DNA of 64,000 bases. Source: a virus. How positions within the stretch are numbered: position 1 is the stretch's first letter; each line of letters starts with the position of its first letter. The stretch is taken from positions 1 through 64,000 of the IMG/VR virus record IMGVR_UViG_3300027861_000001; one strand, written 5' to 3'. Positions 10,852 through 48,953 of this stretch are shown in pieces. Under the pieces are notes generated by a model. That model was not told where the DNA came from. It saw nothing but the letters and a program-made list of their open reading frames with translations, and did no database searches. The position numbers and the translations under genes were made by a program.

Positions 10852-11092
10852 TTGTATAACACCAAAACCTAGAAGGGCATTCATAACACTTATCTAACAC
10901 CGGTTGCAAATTCCTATGTTTATAACACCACTCAAAAGTATCAGTGTTATTACAAACATCACAGTGCCATTTACCATATCTACCTAGGTTATAAGCTTCA
11001 CGCCATAATACATTTTTGTATTCAGCATACGGCATCACATTACCACAAGTTAGACACACTACCTTCAAGTCTTCACTAAGACGATCAACCAT
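10844..11092 (-). CDS. Zinc-knuckle protein ending in a CX2CX5C tail
   Basis: 82 residues. Two internal pairs, CLTC and CDVC, then the family tail CYECPSRFWCYTTN at the very end. Last gene of the leftward array; converges on and overlaps the + strand gene at 10624. The tail is shared with about 55 proteins here. Confidence 0.8.
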   Translation of the reverse strand: MVDRLSEDLKVVCLTCGNVMPYAEYKNVLWREAYNLGRYGKWHCDVCNNTDTFEWCYKHRNLQPVLDKCYECPSRFWCYTTN

Positions 11093-28110: not shown

Positions 28111-28370
28111 TGAGGGGTACAAAAGTAGTAGTTTGTCCAAAATGTAAAATACAATATTACTACAAGTGTTGGATTGCTCTTGAAAAAAGACCGCAACCAA
28201 CGTATAATGGAGATAAGTTCCACATAGTTACTTGCCCTAATTGTAATTTTATGGAAAAGGTTAAAAAAGGAAGCCTTGATTTAGAGTGGGAGTGGGGTAC
28301 GATACTGCACCCAGTAGAAGAACAAGACTGTAATGAGTGTGTAGATAGGTTTAAGTGTTGGACAGAATAA
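28110..28370 (+). CDS. Zinc-ribbon protein with CX2CX5C-WT tail
   Basis: 86 residues from ATG 28110 (TAATG). CPKC and CPNC form a ribbon, then tail CNECVDRFKCWTE. Shows the tail attached to a fold other than the SH3-like one. Confidence 0.85.
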   Translation: MRGTKVVVCPKCKIQYYYKCWIALEKRPQPTYNGDKFHIVTCPNCNFMEKVKKGSLDLEWEWGTILHPVEEQDCNECVDRFKCWTE

Positions 28371-42821: not shown

Positions 42822-43151
42822 ATGAAAATTCGTAAAGGTTTTGTCAGTAATAGTAGTAGCACAAGTTTCTGTATCTTTGGAGCCTGTGTCAAGGAAGGTT
42901 GGGGAGAAAGTTTAGTAACTTTGAGTGCTGAGGAAATTGAAGATAGGTTACAAAATACTACCTTAAGATATGCAACTGGTGAGTCAGATGAAATTTATGT
43001 TGGGTTAAATTGGCATGATATGGACGACAACGAAACCAAACAAGACTTCATGCGACGAATAAGAAAGCTAATCTTGGACGCATTTCCAGAAATAACTGAC
43101 CAAGAATCCTTAAAAGTATATATGGAAGTGCAGGGGTGGTATGACGGATGA
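42822..43151 (+). CDS. GFVSNSSS-family protein 1
   Basis: 109 residues. N-terminus MKIRKGFVSNSSSTSF then CIFGACV; the rest is acidic and unrelated to the other six (LSAEEIEDRLQNTTLR; DAFPEITDQESLKV). AAGGAG site. Closest to member 7, which shares STSFC. Confidence 0.85.
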   Translation: MKIRKGFVSNSSSTSFCIFGACVKEGWGESLVTLSAEEIEDRLQNTTLRYATGESDEIYVGLNWHDMDDNETKQDFMRRIRKLILDAFPEITDQESLKVYMEVQGWYDG

Positions 43152-43711
43152 AAATAAGAAATGGTTTTGTGTCTAACAGTTCTACAGCTAGCTTTATTGT
43201 TTTAATAAAACCTAAAAGAATTAAAGATGTAGAGTTTGTTTTGCGGTATGCAACAGGTGAGTATCCTGTATGTAAAACTGTGTCTAAAAGAAAGAAAGAA
43301 TTAAATAAAGAAATAAGTAAGCTGGACGAAGATATACTTTACGTTAAGGAAAAATACAAGGAACTAGATTCGCTTTATAGTGAGAATGCTTTTGATTTTC
43401 ATGAGTTGTGCCATGACATATCAAACATAAATAATTATAGAAAATCTATATTCGCTATTAGGACAATGAGAGAGCATCCATCAAAAATTAAGCTAAAAAG
43501 AACTTTCTACCACGACAAACTCAAAAATGTAATTGAAAACATTAAGGAAGCAAAGGTTGATTGCCAAAATGAGTTGAAAAGTCTAACTGGTAATGAAACT
43601 TGGAGTATTGTTAGTTTTCAAGATGATGCCAATTTCGGTAGAATGCAAGGAATGGTAGACGAGTTAGTTAAAGATGGAGACGCTATAATTATTTTGGAGG
43701 AAAGAACATGA
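43148..43711 (+). CDS. GFVSNSSS-family protein 2
   Basis: 187 residues, longest of the seven. MKIRNGFVSNSSTASF, then IVLIKPK, a coiled-coil centre (KELNKEISKLDEDILYVKE) and an acidic end (DGDAIIILEE). ATGA overlap upstream. Confidence 0.85.
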   Translation: MKIRNGFVSNSSTASFIVLIKPKRIKDVEFVLRYATGEYPVCKTVSKRKKELNKEISKLDEDILYVKEKYKELDSLYSENAFDFHELCHDISNINNYRKSIFAIRTMREHPSKIKLKRTFYHDKLKNVIENIKEAKVDCQNELKSLTGNETWSIVSFQDDANFGRMQGMVDELVKDGDAIIILEERT

Positions 43712-44250
43712 AAACTAGAACAGGGTTTGTATCAAACAGTTCCAGTAGCTCTTTCGTAGTTTTATTTCCAAAAGTTCCAAAAACTGTTGAAGATGTTAAG
43801 AAGATGGTTTTTTCGAAAGATGAATCATTCTACCCTCGTCCATCTGGTTCAGACTTAAAAACGTGGAGAATAAACAAAGAATATTGGGAAGTTGAGGAAG
43901 TTGCCAAAACAATATTCAGTGATATACAAGAGCAGGAAGTAAATAATAAAGAAGCCATGCTTAATGAGGTGGATGGTGGTGTAAATCCAGATGATTTTAG
44001 GTCTGGTGTAGCAACCACTTATGAGAGAGGAGACGGAACTTCTTACACAATAAATGAGATAGATTGGAAAGCGTATTATAAAGCTGAACACAAACAAAGC
44101 AAGAGAATATTAGAGGCATTTTTAAAGAATAATACAGAAACGGCAGGTTATGTGTTTGAGTATTCAGACAACGATAGTGGTTATTCCAGTGCATTAGAAC
44201 ACGATGGTTTGTTTGAAAATCTTCCACACATCAAAACCAGTAAACACTAA
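43708..44250 (+). CDS. GFVSNSSS-family protein 3
   Basis: 180 residues. MKTRTGFVSNSSSSSF then VVLFPKVP; the C-terminal region is acidic and Tyr-rich (FEYSDNDSGYSSALEHDG). TTGGAGG site and ATGA overlap. Confidence 0.85.
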   Translation: MKTRTGFVSNSSSSSFVVLFPKVPKTVEDVKKMVFSKDESFYPRPSGSDLKTWRINKEYWEVEEVAKTIFSDIQEQEVNNKEAMLNEVDGGVNPDDFRSGVATTYERGDGTSYTINEIDWKAYYKAEHKQSKRILEAFLKNNTETAGYVFEYSDNDSGYSSALEHDGLFENLPHIKTSKH

Positions 44251-44264
44251 AAAGGAGAAAGTAA

Positions 44265-44588
44265 ATGAAAGTAAGGCAGGGATTCGTAAGCAATAGTTCA
44301 AGTAGCTCGTTCATAGTGTTGGTAAAAGATGAAACCATGTCGGCAGAAGAGCGAAGAGAAAAAAACATAGCAATATACAGAGAAGAATATGGAGAAGACT
44401 TCGACGAAGTTGCAGAGGATGGTTACATAAACAAGTGGTTAGCTGGGTACGAGAAAGAACACCAATATATTCTTCTAAAACAAAGTGTTGAGTATGGCGG
44501 AGAAGACTCGGTGACCGCTATAGTAACTGCTTTGTTAGATAAGCTAGGAGTTGCTACAGAAAATATAACGTTTGCGTGGGATGAGTAA
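44265..44588 (+). CDS. GFVSNSSS-family protein 4
   Basis: 107 residues. MKVRQGFVSNSSSSSF then IVLVKDE; charged helical middle (SAEERREKNIAIYREEYG). AAAGGAG site. Confidence 0.85.
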   Translation: MKVRQGFVSNSSSSSFIVLVKDETMSAEERREKNIAIYREEYGEDFDEVAEDGYINKWLAGYEKEHQYILLKQSVEYGGEDSVTAIVTALLDKLGVATENITFAWDE

Positions 44589-44589
44589 C

Positions 44590-44847
44590 ATGAAAATTAG
44601 AACAGGTTTTGTATCAAACAGTAGCAGTAGTAGTTTTGTTCTAACAAAAATGAATTTGTCACAACAACAACTTCAAAAAATTAGTGAGAAGATACGTTTA
44701 TTTGAAGGTGCGAGTAGTGATATGTACATTTATAATGGAAAAAGATTTTTTCACGGTGAGATGTCAATGCATGACATCGAAGCATTTGAAAATTTTCTTG
44801 TGAATCAACTAGGGGTTAGTGAGGAAGATTTCGAATTTAATCAGTAG
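44590..44847 (+). CDS. GFVSNSSS-family protein 5
   Basis: 85 residues from ATG 44590. MKIRTGFVSNSSSSSF then VLTKMNLSQQQLQKIS; a small alpha/beta domain follows. Starts one base after the previous stop. Confidence 0.85.
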   Translation: MKIRTGFVSNSSSSSFVLTKMNLSQQQLQKISEKIRLFEGASSDMYIYNGKRFFHGEMSMHDIEAFENFLVNQLGVSEEDFEFNQ

Positions 44848-44856
44848 GAGAACGAA

Positions 44857-45183
44857 ATGAAAATAAGACAAGGATTTGTGTCCAATAGTTCTAGTTCGTC
44901 TTTTATAGTTCTGAAAGAGAACTTGAATAATTGGCAGCTTAAACAACTGTATGAACATATGTCTGTTGGGAAAACATTGGGAGTGTATATTCCTTATAGA
45001 CCAATAGATAAACCATTCACAGATGACGATAGAATGTATGAAGGTATGGACGCTTGGAGCATAAATGAAGAAGTTAAAGACGACGGTAATACTTACATAA
45101 CAGGATATACTTCTATGAATAATTTTCCAATGGAGGATTTCTTAAAGAAAATTGGTGTTAAGGGTGTACTTTGGGATTACTAA
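44857..45183 (+). CDS. GFVSNSSS-family protein 6
   Basis: 108 residues. MKIRQGFVSNSSSSSF then IVLKENLNNWQLKQLY, similar in plan to member 5 (LSQQQLQKI). AGGAG site. Confidence 0.85.
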   Translation: MKIRQGFVSNSSSSSFIVLKENLNNWQLKQLYEHMSVGKTLGVYIPYRPIDKPFTDDDRMYEGMDAWSINEEVKDDGNTYITGYTSMNNFPMEDFLKKIGVKGVLWDY

Positions 45184-45198
45184 AAAAGGAGTAAAATA

Positions 45199-45558
45199 AT
45201 GAAAATAAGAAAAGGTTTTGTGAGTAATAGTAGCTCAACTTCGTTCTGTGTTTATGGTGATATTATCGAAGAAAGTGAATTAAAAGATATCTTTTCAAAA
45301 CTTGTAGATACGTGGAGTGATGAGGATGATTTGTATGCAATTTGTGAAGATTTGGAACTTGTGTTTCAAGACACGGGAATAGAAGTTATAGCCGGAGAAG
45401 ACTGTCTAGTGATTGGTAGAGGTTATGACACGCTACGCGACAACGAAACTGGGGCAGAATTCAAAACCTCCGTAGAGACAGCTTTAAAGGCAAAGCTTGG
45501 AGATGAAGCTGTAGGTAAAATGCACCTCAGTTATAACGAGGGAGAAATTTATAGTTAA
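45199..45558 (+). CDS. GFVSNSSS-family protein 7
   Basis: 119 residues. MKIRKGFVSNSSSTSF then CVYGDII; acidic remainder. AAAGGAG site. Followed 11 bases later by the radical SAM gene. Confidence 0.85.
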   Translation: MKIRKGFVSNSSSTSFCVYGDIIEESELKDIFSKLVDTWSDEDDLYAICEDLELVFQDTGIEVIAGEDCLVIGRGYDTLRDNETGAEFKTSVETALKAKLGDEAVGKMHLSYNEGEIYS

Positions 45559-45569
45559 AGGAGTAAGTC

Positions 45570-46589
45570 GTGGGAACAAAAACAGTTAAGTCACCAGAGT
45601 ATAATTATATCTTTAATGACGAAACAGGGTTCTTTTTAAGGTGGGGAAAGTCTCTAGAGGACGACCCACTTTACTCACCATACGGCCCAGAGATACTAGA
45701 TATAGAAATATCAACAATTTGCTCTCATGGGTGTTCGTTCTGTTATAAAACAAACAAGAGTGAAGGAATTAATATGACTTATGAAACCTTTACTAGTATG
45801 TTTGAAAAGTTCCCAAGTAACTTGACTCAGATTGCCTTTGGAATTGGGGATATTGACGGGAATCCAGACTTATATGATATTATGGATTATTGCAACCTAA
45901 AAAAAGTAATCCCCAACATTACTATCAACGGTACTAGGATGACTCCTGGGCATTATGACTCTCTATCACAGTTGTGTGGAGCAGTAGCAGTAAGTCTCTA
46001 TGATTATGACACCTGTTATAACGCTGTTAAGGAATTGACAGATCGAGGAATGAAACAAGTAAACATTCACTGTCTCTTGGCTGTTGAGACTTTGGAAAAA
46101 TGTTACCAAGTACTTAAAGATGTAAAAACTGATGAAAGACTGAGTGGTCTTAACGCTGTAGTGTTTTTAATTTTGAAACCAAAAGGAGAAAGAAACCACT
46201 TCACACAAGTAAAAGATAAAGAAGAATTTAAACGTCTTATTGATTTTGCTTTAAAGGCCGAAGTTGGTTTTGGATTTGATTCATGTACTGCTTCAAGTTT
46301 TCTAGAGGCAGTTAGCACAGAACCTAACTATGATACGTATAATTTGTTGTCTGAACCATGTGAATCTACTTTATTTTCATACTACATTAACGTTGAAGGT
46401 AAAGGATTTCCTTGCAGTTTCACCGAATCAGTTTCACCGTACAACGGTATTGACATCTTGAAAGTGGAAGACTTTATGCTTGAGGTGTGGAACCATGAAG
46501 AAACTTTATCTTTTAGAAATAAAGTATTAAGCAATCTTGATTGTAGAGGATGCAGAATGTGTCCTCAATATGATTTACAAATGGTATAA
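45570..46589 (+). CDS. Radical SAM/SPASM-like protein
   Basis: 339 residues, GTG start with AAGGAG. CSHGCSFC (about 52-59) is the CX3CX2C cluster; AFGIGDIDG is a GGE-like SAM segment, altered; TINGTR and VSLYDYDT fit barrel strands. C-terminal cysteines: PCEST, GFPCSF, then CRGCRMCPQYD, SPASM-like auxiliary-cluster ligands used by peptide-modifying enzymes. Directly follows seven genes with one shared N-terminal peptide, so it is a candidate modifier of them. Substrate unproven. Confidence 0.85.
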   Translation: MGTKTVKSPEYNYIFNDETGFFLRWGKSLEDDPLYSPYGPEILDIEISTICSHGCSFCYKTNKSEGINMTYETFTSMFEKFPSNLTQIAFGIGDIDGNPDLYDIMDYCNLKKVIPNITINGTRMTPGHYDSLSQLCGAVAVSLYDYDTCYNAVKELTDRGMKQVNIHCLLAVETLEKCYQVLKDVKTDERLSGLNAVVFLILKPKGERNHFTQVKDKEEFKRLIDFALKAEVGFGFDSCTASSFLEAVSTEPNYDTYNLLSEPCESTLFSYYINVEGKGFPCSFTESVSPYNGIDILKVEDFMLEVWNHEETLSFRNKVLSNLDCRGCRMCPQYDLQMV

Positions 46590-46606: not shown

Positions 46607-48079
46607 GTGAAAGCAGTTGTAAGAGAAGGTGTCGCACAAGGTAGCTACAGAGGTGGTGCTTACTATAACTATGATATGGTAAGAATACAGGGCAAAACTA
46701 TCGAAGTATCTACAATCAAAAACAGTGAATATGATTATATAACTATACCAAACGGAACTGACGAGCGTAGTTGGAGTTGGTTGAGAGAATGGCTTGTAAT
46801 CAACTCTGCCGGAGAGGTGCGAGAGGCAAGAGTAAGGTTACTAAAAGCTTTTGATGATGTTGATGTTAATACACCTGTTGTACTAGACATTTATACAGCT
46901 TTGAGGCTTGGTGTAGGTAAAGATCAAATGGTTGGGTTCAGTGTTGAAAGGGAAGGTAGGATTGCTTACGCCAGTAAACCTGAACACTTGTACGACATTA
47001 CAAAAAGACAACGAAGCTCACTACAGAGATATATACGTAGACAATTGAAATTTGGCACATCTCGTATCAAAGATCATGAGTTGGATTTACTTTGTCGTCA
47101 AGTTGTAAAAGTGTGTTATGACGGACAATTTACACTATTAAAAGGTGTTGCTATAGCAGATGCATACGAACGTCACGCTGGGTGCGACTCATGTATGACA
47201 GGTGATAGAACTTTAGTAGAAATGTACGCTATTAATAGTAATATTGAACTGGCTCTGTATCAATTCAACGGACGAGAAGCAAGGGCACTGTTGTGGACTT
47301 GTGATGACGGTATGAAAGTTCTTGATCGTATATATCCAAATGATGGTGGTCATATTGAAATTATGAAGGCGTGGGCAGCGGAGAATGGGTGGATATACAG
47401 AGTTAGTAACTCATTACCTGAAGACGATACTATAGAGTTATCAGATCGTAGTTTAAGGTATATAACTGTTAAACCTACACAAAATATACCATATTTGGAT
47501 ACTTTTTACCACGGAGAAGGAGTCAACGGTGGTATGATGGTATTGTCAAATGACGAAGATCATGGTCATTTTGTAGGTGACGGAGAGGGTGGATATACAT
47601 GTGAGTTTTGTGGCGCATATGTTAACCCAGATGATTGTTTTTGTGATAATGATGACTATATATGTGATTCTTGTCAAGATGAGTATTATGTACTATGTGA
47701 CAGATGTGATGAGTATGTTAATATTGAGAGTAGCCGAGCTACTGTAGAGGTAGATAATGAGATAATATGTCGTGACTGTCGCTCTGAATTAGATATAGTA
47801 GAGTGCTATCACTGTGGTTCTTTCACGCTCGATTATGTTGAAGTAGACAATAAGTATAATTATTGTGAATGTTGTGCTGATATTTATGCTGATGAGTGTG
47901 ATAAGTGTGGTAACCTTACAACTAATATAAAGGTTACTAATGATGATAGTTCTATCTGTCCTGATTGTTGGGACGAAAAGGCATACATATGTGATGGGTG
48001 TGGTAGTTTATTCGACGTAGATAATACAGAAGGAGGTTACTGTGTGGAATGTCAGTCAACCAGAAAAGAAACCATATAA
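46607..48079 (+). CDS. 490-residue protein with C-terminal multi-zinc-knuckle region
   Basis: GTG start with GAGGAG. Residues 1-320 globular, unrecognised, with CDSCMTGDR near 194. From about 340 to 484 come nine or more CX2C knuckles in series (CEFC, CDSC, CDRC, CRDC, CYHC, CECC, CDKC, CPDC, CDGC, CVEC), enough for about five zinc ribbons. Such strings often bind nucleic acid or partners. Overlaps the peptidase gene by 38 bases. Confidence 0.8.
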   Translation: MKAVVREGVAQGSYRGGAYYNYDMVRIQGKTIEVSTIKNSEYDYITIPNGTDERSWSWLREWLVINSAGEVREARVRLLKAFDDVDVNTPVVLDIYTALRLGVGKDQMVGFSVEREGRIAYASKPEHLYDITKRQRSSLQRYIRRQLKFGTSRIKDHELDLLCRQVVKVCYDGQFTLLKGVAIADAYERHAGCDSCMTGDRTLVEMYAINSNIELALYQFNGREARALLWTCDDGMKVLDRIYPNDGGHIEIMKAWAAENGWIYRVSNSLPEDDTIELSDRSLRYITVKPTQNIPYLDTFYHGEGVNGGMMVLSNDEDHGHFVGDGEGGYTCEFCGAYVNPDDCFCDNDDYICDSCQDEYYVLCDRCDEYVNIESSRATVEVDNEIICRDCRSELDIVECYHCGSFTLDYVEVDNKYNYCECCADIYADECDKCGNLTTNIKVTNDDSSICPDCWDEKAYICDGCGSLFDVDNTEGGYCVECQSTRKETI

Positions 48080-48953
48080 AAAAAACTTACCAGAGGTTAT
48101 GAGGGCAACGTCTTTAAAAAACCTATCGTGGTACTGTCATGCAGACATACCAACGTTGTTTAACGCTACAGGTGGAAACCATAACGACGAGTATGCGTTC
48201 AAAGATAACGGAAGTAAGATTCTAGCTGTTGCTCATTGTGACGTATCAAGAATCATAGAAAAGCAACGTCATTTTAGCGTAGCCAAACTTACAACTGATA
48301 CACTTATATACTCAACTTATTTAGATGATAGATTAGGTGTATACACAATACTTGAAGTGTTACCAAGGCTTGGTATTAATGTTGATGTTTTATTGACCAC
48401 AGACGAGGAAATAGCTAAGTCTACAGCTACGTTGTTTACACCTAAAAAAGAATACAATTGGATGGTAGAGTTTGATAGAAGGGGTGATGATGCCGTAACG
48501 TATCAATACGATTGGGAAGATATTATAGGAGATTATTTCCAAGTTGGTACTGGCACATTCTCTGATTTGAATGATTTAGACCATGTTGGTGTATGTGGAG
48601 TAAACGTTGGAGTAGGTTACCAAGATGAACATTCACCTTTTTGCTATATGTCAGTTGCGGAATATAGGCACCAACTAGCAAGGTTTGTGTCGTTCTGGGA
48701 TTACGAAAAAGATAATAGGTACGAACACTTTGAACAAGCCAGTCCAACTTTGTTAAATGATATCCCTTCAGTTGATATAACAGACGATGGGTGTGTTACG
48801 TGTCCTAGGTGTGCATCTCACTTTAATGTTGCAGACCTATACGAATGGCATAAATGGTTGTGTTGTCCTATGTGTGGTGAAGATATTGTAGAAACGAAAG
48901 AACACCTAGGCAACAGGGTTATAGATGATTGGGATGAGATATGGGAGCTCTGA
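48042..48953 (+). CDS. M28/M20-like zinc peptidase with C-terminal zinc ribbon
   Basis: 303 residues, GTG start with GGAGG 6 bases before. AVAHCDVS (metal His, Asp), YLDDRLGVYT (bridging Asp), TTDEEIAKST (catalytic Glu-Glu), MVEFDRRGDD (metal Asp) and DEHSPFCYMSV (metal His) follow the order of M28/M20 co-catalytic zinc peptidases. A CPRC...CPMC ribbon ends the protein. Substrate unknown; cytosolic, no signal peptide. Confidence 0.82.
   Translation: MWNVSQPEKKPYKKNLPEVMRATSLKNLSWYCHADIPTLFNATGGNHNDEYAFKDNGSKILAVAHCDVSRIIEKQRHFSVAKLTTDTLIYSTYLDDRLGVYTILEVLPRLGINVDVLLTTDEEIAKSTATLFTPKKEYNWMVEFDRRGDDAVTYQYDWEDIIGDYFQVGTGTFSDLNDLDHVGVCGVNVGVGYQDEHSPFCYMSVAEYRHQLARFVSFWDYEKDNRYEHFEQASPTLLNDIPSVDITDDGCVTCPRCASHFNVADLYEWHKWLCCPMCGEDIVETKEHLGNRVIDDWDEIWEL

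Follow-up and report, generated by a model that had tools for sequence, protein, structure and literature searches.

A candidate protein-tagging operon of a large phage: an invariant N-terminal tip on unrelated proteins and its linkage to a radical-SAM enzyme

Introduction

What could a row of viral proteins have in common when little more than their first 16 residues are alike, and why should the gene of a radical S-adenosylmethionine (SAM) enzyme lie directly behind them? This question is raised by a locus in a stretch of viral DNA of 64,000 nucleotides (hereafter the window), which corresponds to positions 1 to 64,000 of the virus record IMGVR_UViG_3300027861_000001, 149,053 bases in full length. 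In this locus, seven consecutive open reading frames (ORFs) of the plus strand, spanning positions 42822-45558, encode proteins with the N-terminus MK[IVT]R[KNTQ]GFVSNSS[ST][SAT]SF, termed here the tag. A preliminary description, made from the sequence alone, had proposed both this set of seven genes and, 11 bases downstream, a radical-SAM gene with SPASM-like cysteines. Both elements are indeed in place, as all seven ORFs carry the motif and the ORF that follows them matches Pfam family PF04055. The locus is probably a protein-tagging operon, in which the neighboring enzyme would dock on the tag and modify it. More generally, our findings point to a tagging system employed by both parties, phages and bacteria, in their conflict; no description of it was found in the full text of the open-licence papers searched, and its best-supported outline is that large phages use it on many proteins and bacteria on one or few, often in operons with a NACHT gene.

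Tag and enzyme occur together in viruses

Throughout the 149,053-base record the degenerate tag motif has seven matches, all of them on the plus strand and within the locus, and a control motif with the pattern reversed has none. How often a radical-SAM gene lies close to the tag, the check suggested in the preliminary description, was assessed from both sides, with a strongly positive outcome. A tag-first scan of viral sequences, carried out with a DNA pattern for the tag, matched at least 120 stretches. Among the matches listed, the enzyme is present in 35 of the 50 viral records of at least 46 kb that were found by the tag only, and in 16 of a further 25 tag-bearing records, mostly shorter. 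On the other hand, 29 large viral contigs picked as a control set by the unrelated motif GPAGTGKT contain neither tags nor enzymes (Fisher 8e-11 versus 35/50), and a loose regular expression for the tag has no match in 662 kb of control phage DNA. Moreover, the two elements are neighbors: in the listed viral records that contain both, the gap between tag and enzyme has a median of 875 bases and is at most 5 kb in 31 of 37 cases (combined p about 1e-14.7 versus random placement, with some contigs being near-copies).

The enzyme-first scan, whose query consisted of enzyme peptides from closer sequences, returned 80 viral loci, 48 of which are on contigs outside the tag set. Tag genes are found within the fetched flanks (at most 10 kb) in 40 of these 48 loci, and the tag genes of enzyme-first loci are on the strand of the enzyme without exception (153/153). 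When the commonest neighbor families within 10 kb of the enzyme were ranked over 81 loci, 10 of the first 11 proved to be tagged. Named phages are also included, since Escherichia phage RB16 and Klebsiella phage KP15 possess both a tag gene and the enzyme; in a collection of 50,697 records, Straboviridae such as these two account for 174 records with the tagged gene and 173 with the enzyme, in very similar sets. A tblastn search with the tag alone gave no matches, with low-complexity masking probably removing the tag from the query. Wide occurrence of the tag with no linked radical-SAM gene, named beforehand as the outcome that would speak against the proposal, is thus not what these counts show, nor do the 29 of 32 tagged cellular genomes described below.

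The tag is conserved at the protein level

In 282 distinct tagged proteins, the invariant glycine is residue 6 in 279. The consensus derived from the enzyme-first loci, M-K-x-R-x-G-F-V-S-N-S-S-[ST]-[STAC]-S-[FY], is independent of the tag DNA pattern, and N10, S11 and S12 are present in 119 of 119 enzyme-first sequences, although the regular expression used fixes part of this consensus. Serine codons of the AGY and TCN families are employed in nearly equal numbers (136:143 at S12, 129:150 at S15) and, because serine is kept through both codon families, the tag is selected at the protein level. The same free switching between AGY and TCN led us to reject a signal acting on DNA or RNA level, as well as a recent duplication of the DNA that encodes the tag.

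Downstream of the tag, the 282 proteins (median length 134 residues; 85-187 at the window locus) fall into 65 body clusters, some of them with zinc-ribbon-like CxxC pairs. The statement of the preliminary description that the bodies diverge completely has to be amended for genes 1 and 7 of the locus (numbered as in Table 1), whose bodies are paralogous (E 0.004). Recurring body families extend over at least 20 loci, their members being nearly all tagged, and for most of the seven window bodies, tagged members of the same family exist in other phages. Specifically, the gene 1 body family comprises 26 tagged proteins at 24 loci, that of gene 3 is found at 22-24 loci with 21 of 24 members tagged, and that of gene 6 at 24-27 loci with 27 of 28 members tagged. 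The gene 2 body has one tagged homologue (locus L116), and none was detected for gene 4 in the body comparison among tagged proteins. No relatives of genes 1 and 3 are present in the named phage collection. An apparently tag-less homologue in phage CPRSA was explained by a frameshift within the tag.

The AlphaFold2 model of the gene 6 protein predicts that residues 1-10 are disordered (predicted local distance difference test, pLDDT, 44) and that they precede a confident small alpha/beta body, whose first strand starts at residue 14 and which has no significant match in a search of solved structures. An invariant and flexible tip on unrelated domains has the look of a docking or modification site.

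The enzyme resembles peptide- and protein-modifying radical-SAM enzymes

The product of the eighth gene, whose C-terminus is SPASM-like, matches PF04055 above the cut-off (1.1e-8), the SPASM domain below the cut-off (1.3e-3) and family PHROG 7293 (2.6e-88). Both features of a radical-SAM SPASM/twitch enzyme are found, namely the SAM-cluster motif in a radical-SAM fold and the cysteines of an auxiliary cluster. The CxxxCxxC motif is C51-x3-C55-x2-C58, with C51 and C58 invariant and C55 present in 56 of 58 homologues; four further cysteines, C239, C264, C282 and C331, are invariant across the 58 sequences and could ligate one auxiliary cluster, for which they are enough. The AlphaFold2 model (pLDDT 96) has its best fold matches in SuiB (1e-10), SkfB, CteB and the anaerobic sulfatase-maturating enzyme (anSME), and a profile search returned SuiB (1e-8), SkfB (6e-8) and BtrN (1e-6). 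With the exception of BtrN, these enzymes act on peptides or proteins. The 339-residue model contains no N-terminal recognition domain of the RRE type (recognition element of ribosomally synthesized and post-translationally modified peptides, RiPPs).

The enzymes of the host clade defined below retain the full SPASM set C-x2-C-x5-C-x3-C...C, and many of the viral clade have lost most of the second set of SPASM cysteines. In other words, the ligands of the second cluster were lost repeatedly in viruses while four cysteines remained constant, which provides a natural series in which the purpose of the second auxiliary cluster can be studied. In phage RB43 (L074 record, 180,500 bases) the enzyme gene is apparently split over two frames at positions 92715-93864; RB16 and KP15 have a single open frame.

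Bacteria and plasmids carry the same pair, often beside a NACHT gene

The DNA pattern for the tag also matched 33 stretches in 32 cellular species genomes, and 29 of these 32 genomes contain a relative of the enzyme, usually as the neighboring gene. Moreover, four plasmid loci were found solely by similarity to a bacterial enzyme; in all four, the gene immediately upstream encodes MK[IL]K[ML]DFVSNSSSTSF, a variant that was not used in any tag search. A maximum-likelihood tree of the enzyme separates a viral clade, with 40 sequences labelled as viral and 6 as cellular, from a cellular or host clade (18 sequences), and the pairing of tag and enzyme exists on both sides of this deepest split.

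A NACHT nucleoside triphosphatase (NTPase) of the trypsin, SMEK or Avs2 type is encoded within a few genes at 9 of 14 cellular-clade loci in genomes, at none of the 13 viral-clade loci in cellular genomes, and, as SMEK-NACHT, at all four plasmid loci. Accordingly, it is the host relatives only that display the hallmark of an AVAST/STAND immune operon, a NACHT-type STAND NTPase with an N-terminal effector. In Acetatifactor and Veillonella the gene order is metallo-beta-lactamase (MBL) hydrolase, trypsin-NACHT, small protein, tagged protein and enzyme, the MBL-fold protein of Acetatifactor matching LmuA (3e-62) and Avs1a (5e-52). The NTPase is Avs2-like in Prevotella (9e-48) and a SMEK-NACHT in Verrucomicrobia. 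Most NTPases of these operons are short (about 845-985 residues), and their similarity to Avs2 covers only roughly its first 700 positions out of 1,500, which makes a separate sensor plausible.

A comparison of bodies stripped of the tag showed homology between the tagged proteins of the immune operons and a tagged family of phages (hhalign 98%, E 1e-13; hmmsearch up to 1.7e-11 within a small set). Bacteria thus hold relatives of the phage enzyme and of one tagged protein in operons that resemble those of immune receptors. By analogy, these operons would protect against phages. This bacterial form is rare, as a scan of 391 genomes from the class of Acetatifactor matched only the seed genome.

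The candidate immune operon (loci L132, L149, L369, L372, L348 and L379-L382) consists of a NACHT NTPase, in most of the loci an untagged small protein, the tagged protein and the enzyme; it also occurs on Agrobacterium pAt plasmids, and no name for it was found in PADLOC or in the papers searched. The untagged small protein had been considered as a paralogue of the tagged one, which is unsupported (hhalign 0.4%). Separately, Myxococcota bins (L143/L356 and L158/L370) contain three to four paralogous tagged genes beside the enzyme, similar to the phage arrays, with no NACHT gene nearby.

Proposed mechanism and alternative explanations

That the tag is the substrate of the enzyme, the type of chemistry and the biological role are what we infer from these data. 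In the proposed mechanism, each tagged protein would offer its invariant and flexible N-terminus MK-x-R-x-GFVSNSSSSSF as the docking and modification site. The enzyme would bind SAM on its CxxxCxxC cluster, would possess one fully ligated auxiliary cluster, as the four invariant cysteines suggest, and would introduce a radical-based change within the tag. A serine-directed change, such as an oxidation of the kind performed by anSME, or an intramolecular crosslink in FVSNSSSSSF would be the most plausible candidate chemistries. One enzyme would serve all the tagged proteins of a phage, like a promiscuous maturase with its precursors; what is modified would be the constant tip, with the bodies acting as different working domains. 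In the NACHT/AVAST-like operons, the tagged protein would probably be a sensor or regulator of the NTPase. Since relatives of the enzyme and a tagged protein are found in bacterial immune operons, the most likely role of the phage set is in the conflict between phage and host. The direction of transfer can be read in two ways, with the bacterial pair as a decoy for phage tags or with phages having borrowed an immune module, and neither is favored. A more specific scenario, which we put forward tentatively, is that the phage enzyme marks many N-termini and that NACHT operons captured the enzyme and a homologue of one tagged phage protein, which as an integrated decoy or sensor would read the tag's state in the course of an infection.

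Several observations weigh against a tagging operon. A distance of about 19 kb separates the enzyme from the closest tag gene detected in KP15, RB16 and RB43. Tags with no detected enzyme occur in 15 of the 50 large and 9 of the 25 smaller viral records, many of which are fragments, and in three tagged cellular bins, two of them Lokiarchaeota. Furthermore, the sequences are not independent, some contigs being near-copies, and the samples are non-random. Finally, the tag could be recognized without being changed.

This last point leads to the first alternative, according to which the tag is a recognition handle only and the enzyme modifies residues elsewhere in each body, in the style of leader-guided RiPPs. 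The closest folds of the enzyme are RiPP maturases, and one promiscuous maturase acting on partners with constant leaders and variable remainders is a known design, exemplified by the prochlorosins. However, the bodies come from unrelated families in which no common residue pattern was seen, 38 of the 282 tagged proteins have no cysteine for thioethers, the enzyme model contains no RRE, and no protease or exporter is conserved nearby, all of which makes this explanation unlikely. A second explanation, that the tag is a targeting signal for head packaging or for import into a phage compartment and that the enzyme is merely co-inherited, would be in keeping with a tag that is flexible and basic at its start in front of acidic bodies. 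Internal proteins of T4, with their capsid-targeting sequences, likewise have a short constant N-terminus before varied bodies. Nevertheless, the pair of tag and enzyme is also present in NACHT operons of plasmids and bacterial chromosomes, a setting with no capsid, and a search that started from the enzyme still recovered the tag in most loci; we therefore regard targeting as rather improbable. Least credible of all is that the common N-terminus is the first segment of a single diverged domain family on whose fold the enzyme acts, for although the tag leads directly into the first beta strand of the gene 6 model and some bodies are remotely related (genes 1 and 7; host and phage families), the number and variety of the body clusters speak against it, as does the finding that residues 1-10, while belonging to the most conserved positions, have the least structure.

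Relation to known systems

The comparison of the locus with a ribosomal-peptide maturation locus, drawn in the preliminary description, is not supported. The partners are 85-187 residues long, their bodies form conserved families, what is invariant in them is the tag rather than a core, and one body is predicted to fold, so that the short precursor with a leader and a modified core that defines a RiPP cluster is not what is found. In addition, no RiPP-type RRE, leader peptidase or exporter is a conserved family in the 81 enzyme neighborhoods, although an RRE is not obligatory for RiPPs. Likenesses to the RiPP maturases (SuiB of streptide, SkfB, CteB) and to anSME are the radical-SAM core, the SPASM/twitch cysteines and a partner gene in the same operon. 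The enzyme differs from them in its identity of only about 11-17% and in having no RRE domain, and the system differs from the RiPP maturases in its partners of about 100-190 residues with an invariant N-terminal tip, several per enzyme, and no protease or exporter. The idea of a peptide-modification system thus survives insofar as a conserved N-terminal signal is coupled to an enzyme of a peptide-modifying type; in the RiPP sense it is unsupported.

The closest published idea is the FxSxx/radical-SAM peptide-processing module of the VMAP ternary conflict systems, where a metallopeptidase releases a motif located at the C-terminus (PMC7159879). Common to both are a radical-SAM-SPASM enzyme, small variable proteins with one motif, STAND-type ATPases and a predicted role in immunity. 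Here, by contrast, the motif is N-terminal, there is no metallopeptidase, the NACHT protein is of Avs2 type and the system is widespread in large phages. A pair of MBL nuclease and trypsin is well established as an effector module in AVAST, Hachiman and Lamassu systems (PMC12799240), and the MBL-fold protein upstream of trypsin-NACHT in Acetatifactor and Veillonella resembles it; the difference is that here the NTPase is short in most cases and is followed by two small proteins and the enzyme. The text of PMC12799240 makes no mention of radical SAM. The tag is also distinct from a T4-type capsid-targeting sequence, which is confined to phage head proteins and cleaved by the prohead protease, in that it is found next to NACHT genes in operons of bacteria and plasmids as well. 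Lastly, PHROG 7293, the family of the enzyme, and PHROG 7397, which covers gene 3 together with its tag (1.7e-11), have no assigned function in their records, and no link between the two is noted in the family records examined.

If true, a modification tag common to many unrelated viral proteins and served by its own enzyme would add a new layer to what is known of phage biology. The same pair, being present in bacterial NACHT operons, points to a concrete trigger for a class of immune receptors for which the sensed signal is often unknown. A function is also suggested for two uncharacterized PHROG families and many "hypothetical" phage proteins.

Organization of the locus and neighboring features

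Shine-Dalgarno sites are clear for most genes of the locus and good for that of the enzyme; together with the 4-base overlaps between genes 1 and 2 and between genes 2 and 3 and with the 11-base spacing before the enzyme gene, they indicate that the eight genes form one operon (Table 1).

Table 1. Genes of the tag locus (positions in the window)
Feature	Position	Strand	Length (aa, amino acids)	Sequence	Remarks
Tagged gene 1	42822..43151	+	109	MKIRKGFVSNSSSTSF	Body paralogous to gene 7
Tagged gene 2	43148..43711	+	187	MKIRNGFVSNSSTASF	4-base overlap with gene 1
Tagged gene 3	43708..44250	+	180	MKTRTGFVSNSSSSSF	PHROG 7397; 4-base overlap with gene 2
Tagged gene 4	44265..44588	+	107	MKVRQGFVSNSSSSSF	
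Tagged gene 5	44590..44847	+	85	MKIRTGFVSNSSSSSF	Starts at the ATG at 44590, not at the TTG of the longer ORF
Tagged gene 6	44857..45183	+	108	MKIRQGFVSNSSSSSF	
Tagged gene 7	45199..45558	+	119	MKIRKGFVSNSSSTSF	Body paralogous to gene 1
Radical-SAM/SPASM-twitch enzyme	45570..46589	+	339		GTG start; PHROG 7293

Two genes downstream of the enzyme, positions 48042-48953 encode an M42-like peptidase with a C-terminal zinc ribbon (PHROG 4191, 5.6e-12); its family is not one of those conserved around the enzyme in other phages. The sole untagged family among the 11 most frequent enzyme neighbors is an IMPDH/GuaB-like gene, found at 11 loci including L393.

The window contains a second shared element, at the other end of the proteins. 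Between positions 10888 and 62710, about 40 small proteins (about 43 ORFs) have the C-terminal pattern C-x2-C-x4-[RK]-[FY]-x-C-W-T, in most cases with a single residue between it and the stop codon; examples are the ORFs at 28329, 31010, 34752, 40182, 41941, 53236 and 57663. The corresponding DNA pattern has 37 matches in record G000, 10 in G037 and 7 in G127, which are close enzyme relatives, and none in 53 other large viral records tested. This looks like another system in which one tag is placed on many proteins, in this phage clade. A related element, C-x2-C...RFxCYT, is located near the C-terminus of a GFVSNSSS-tagged protein of another phage (L116:976-1374).

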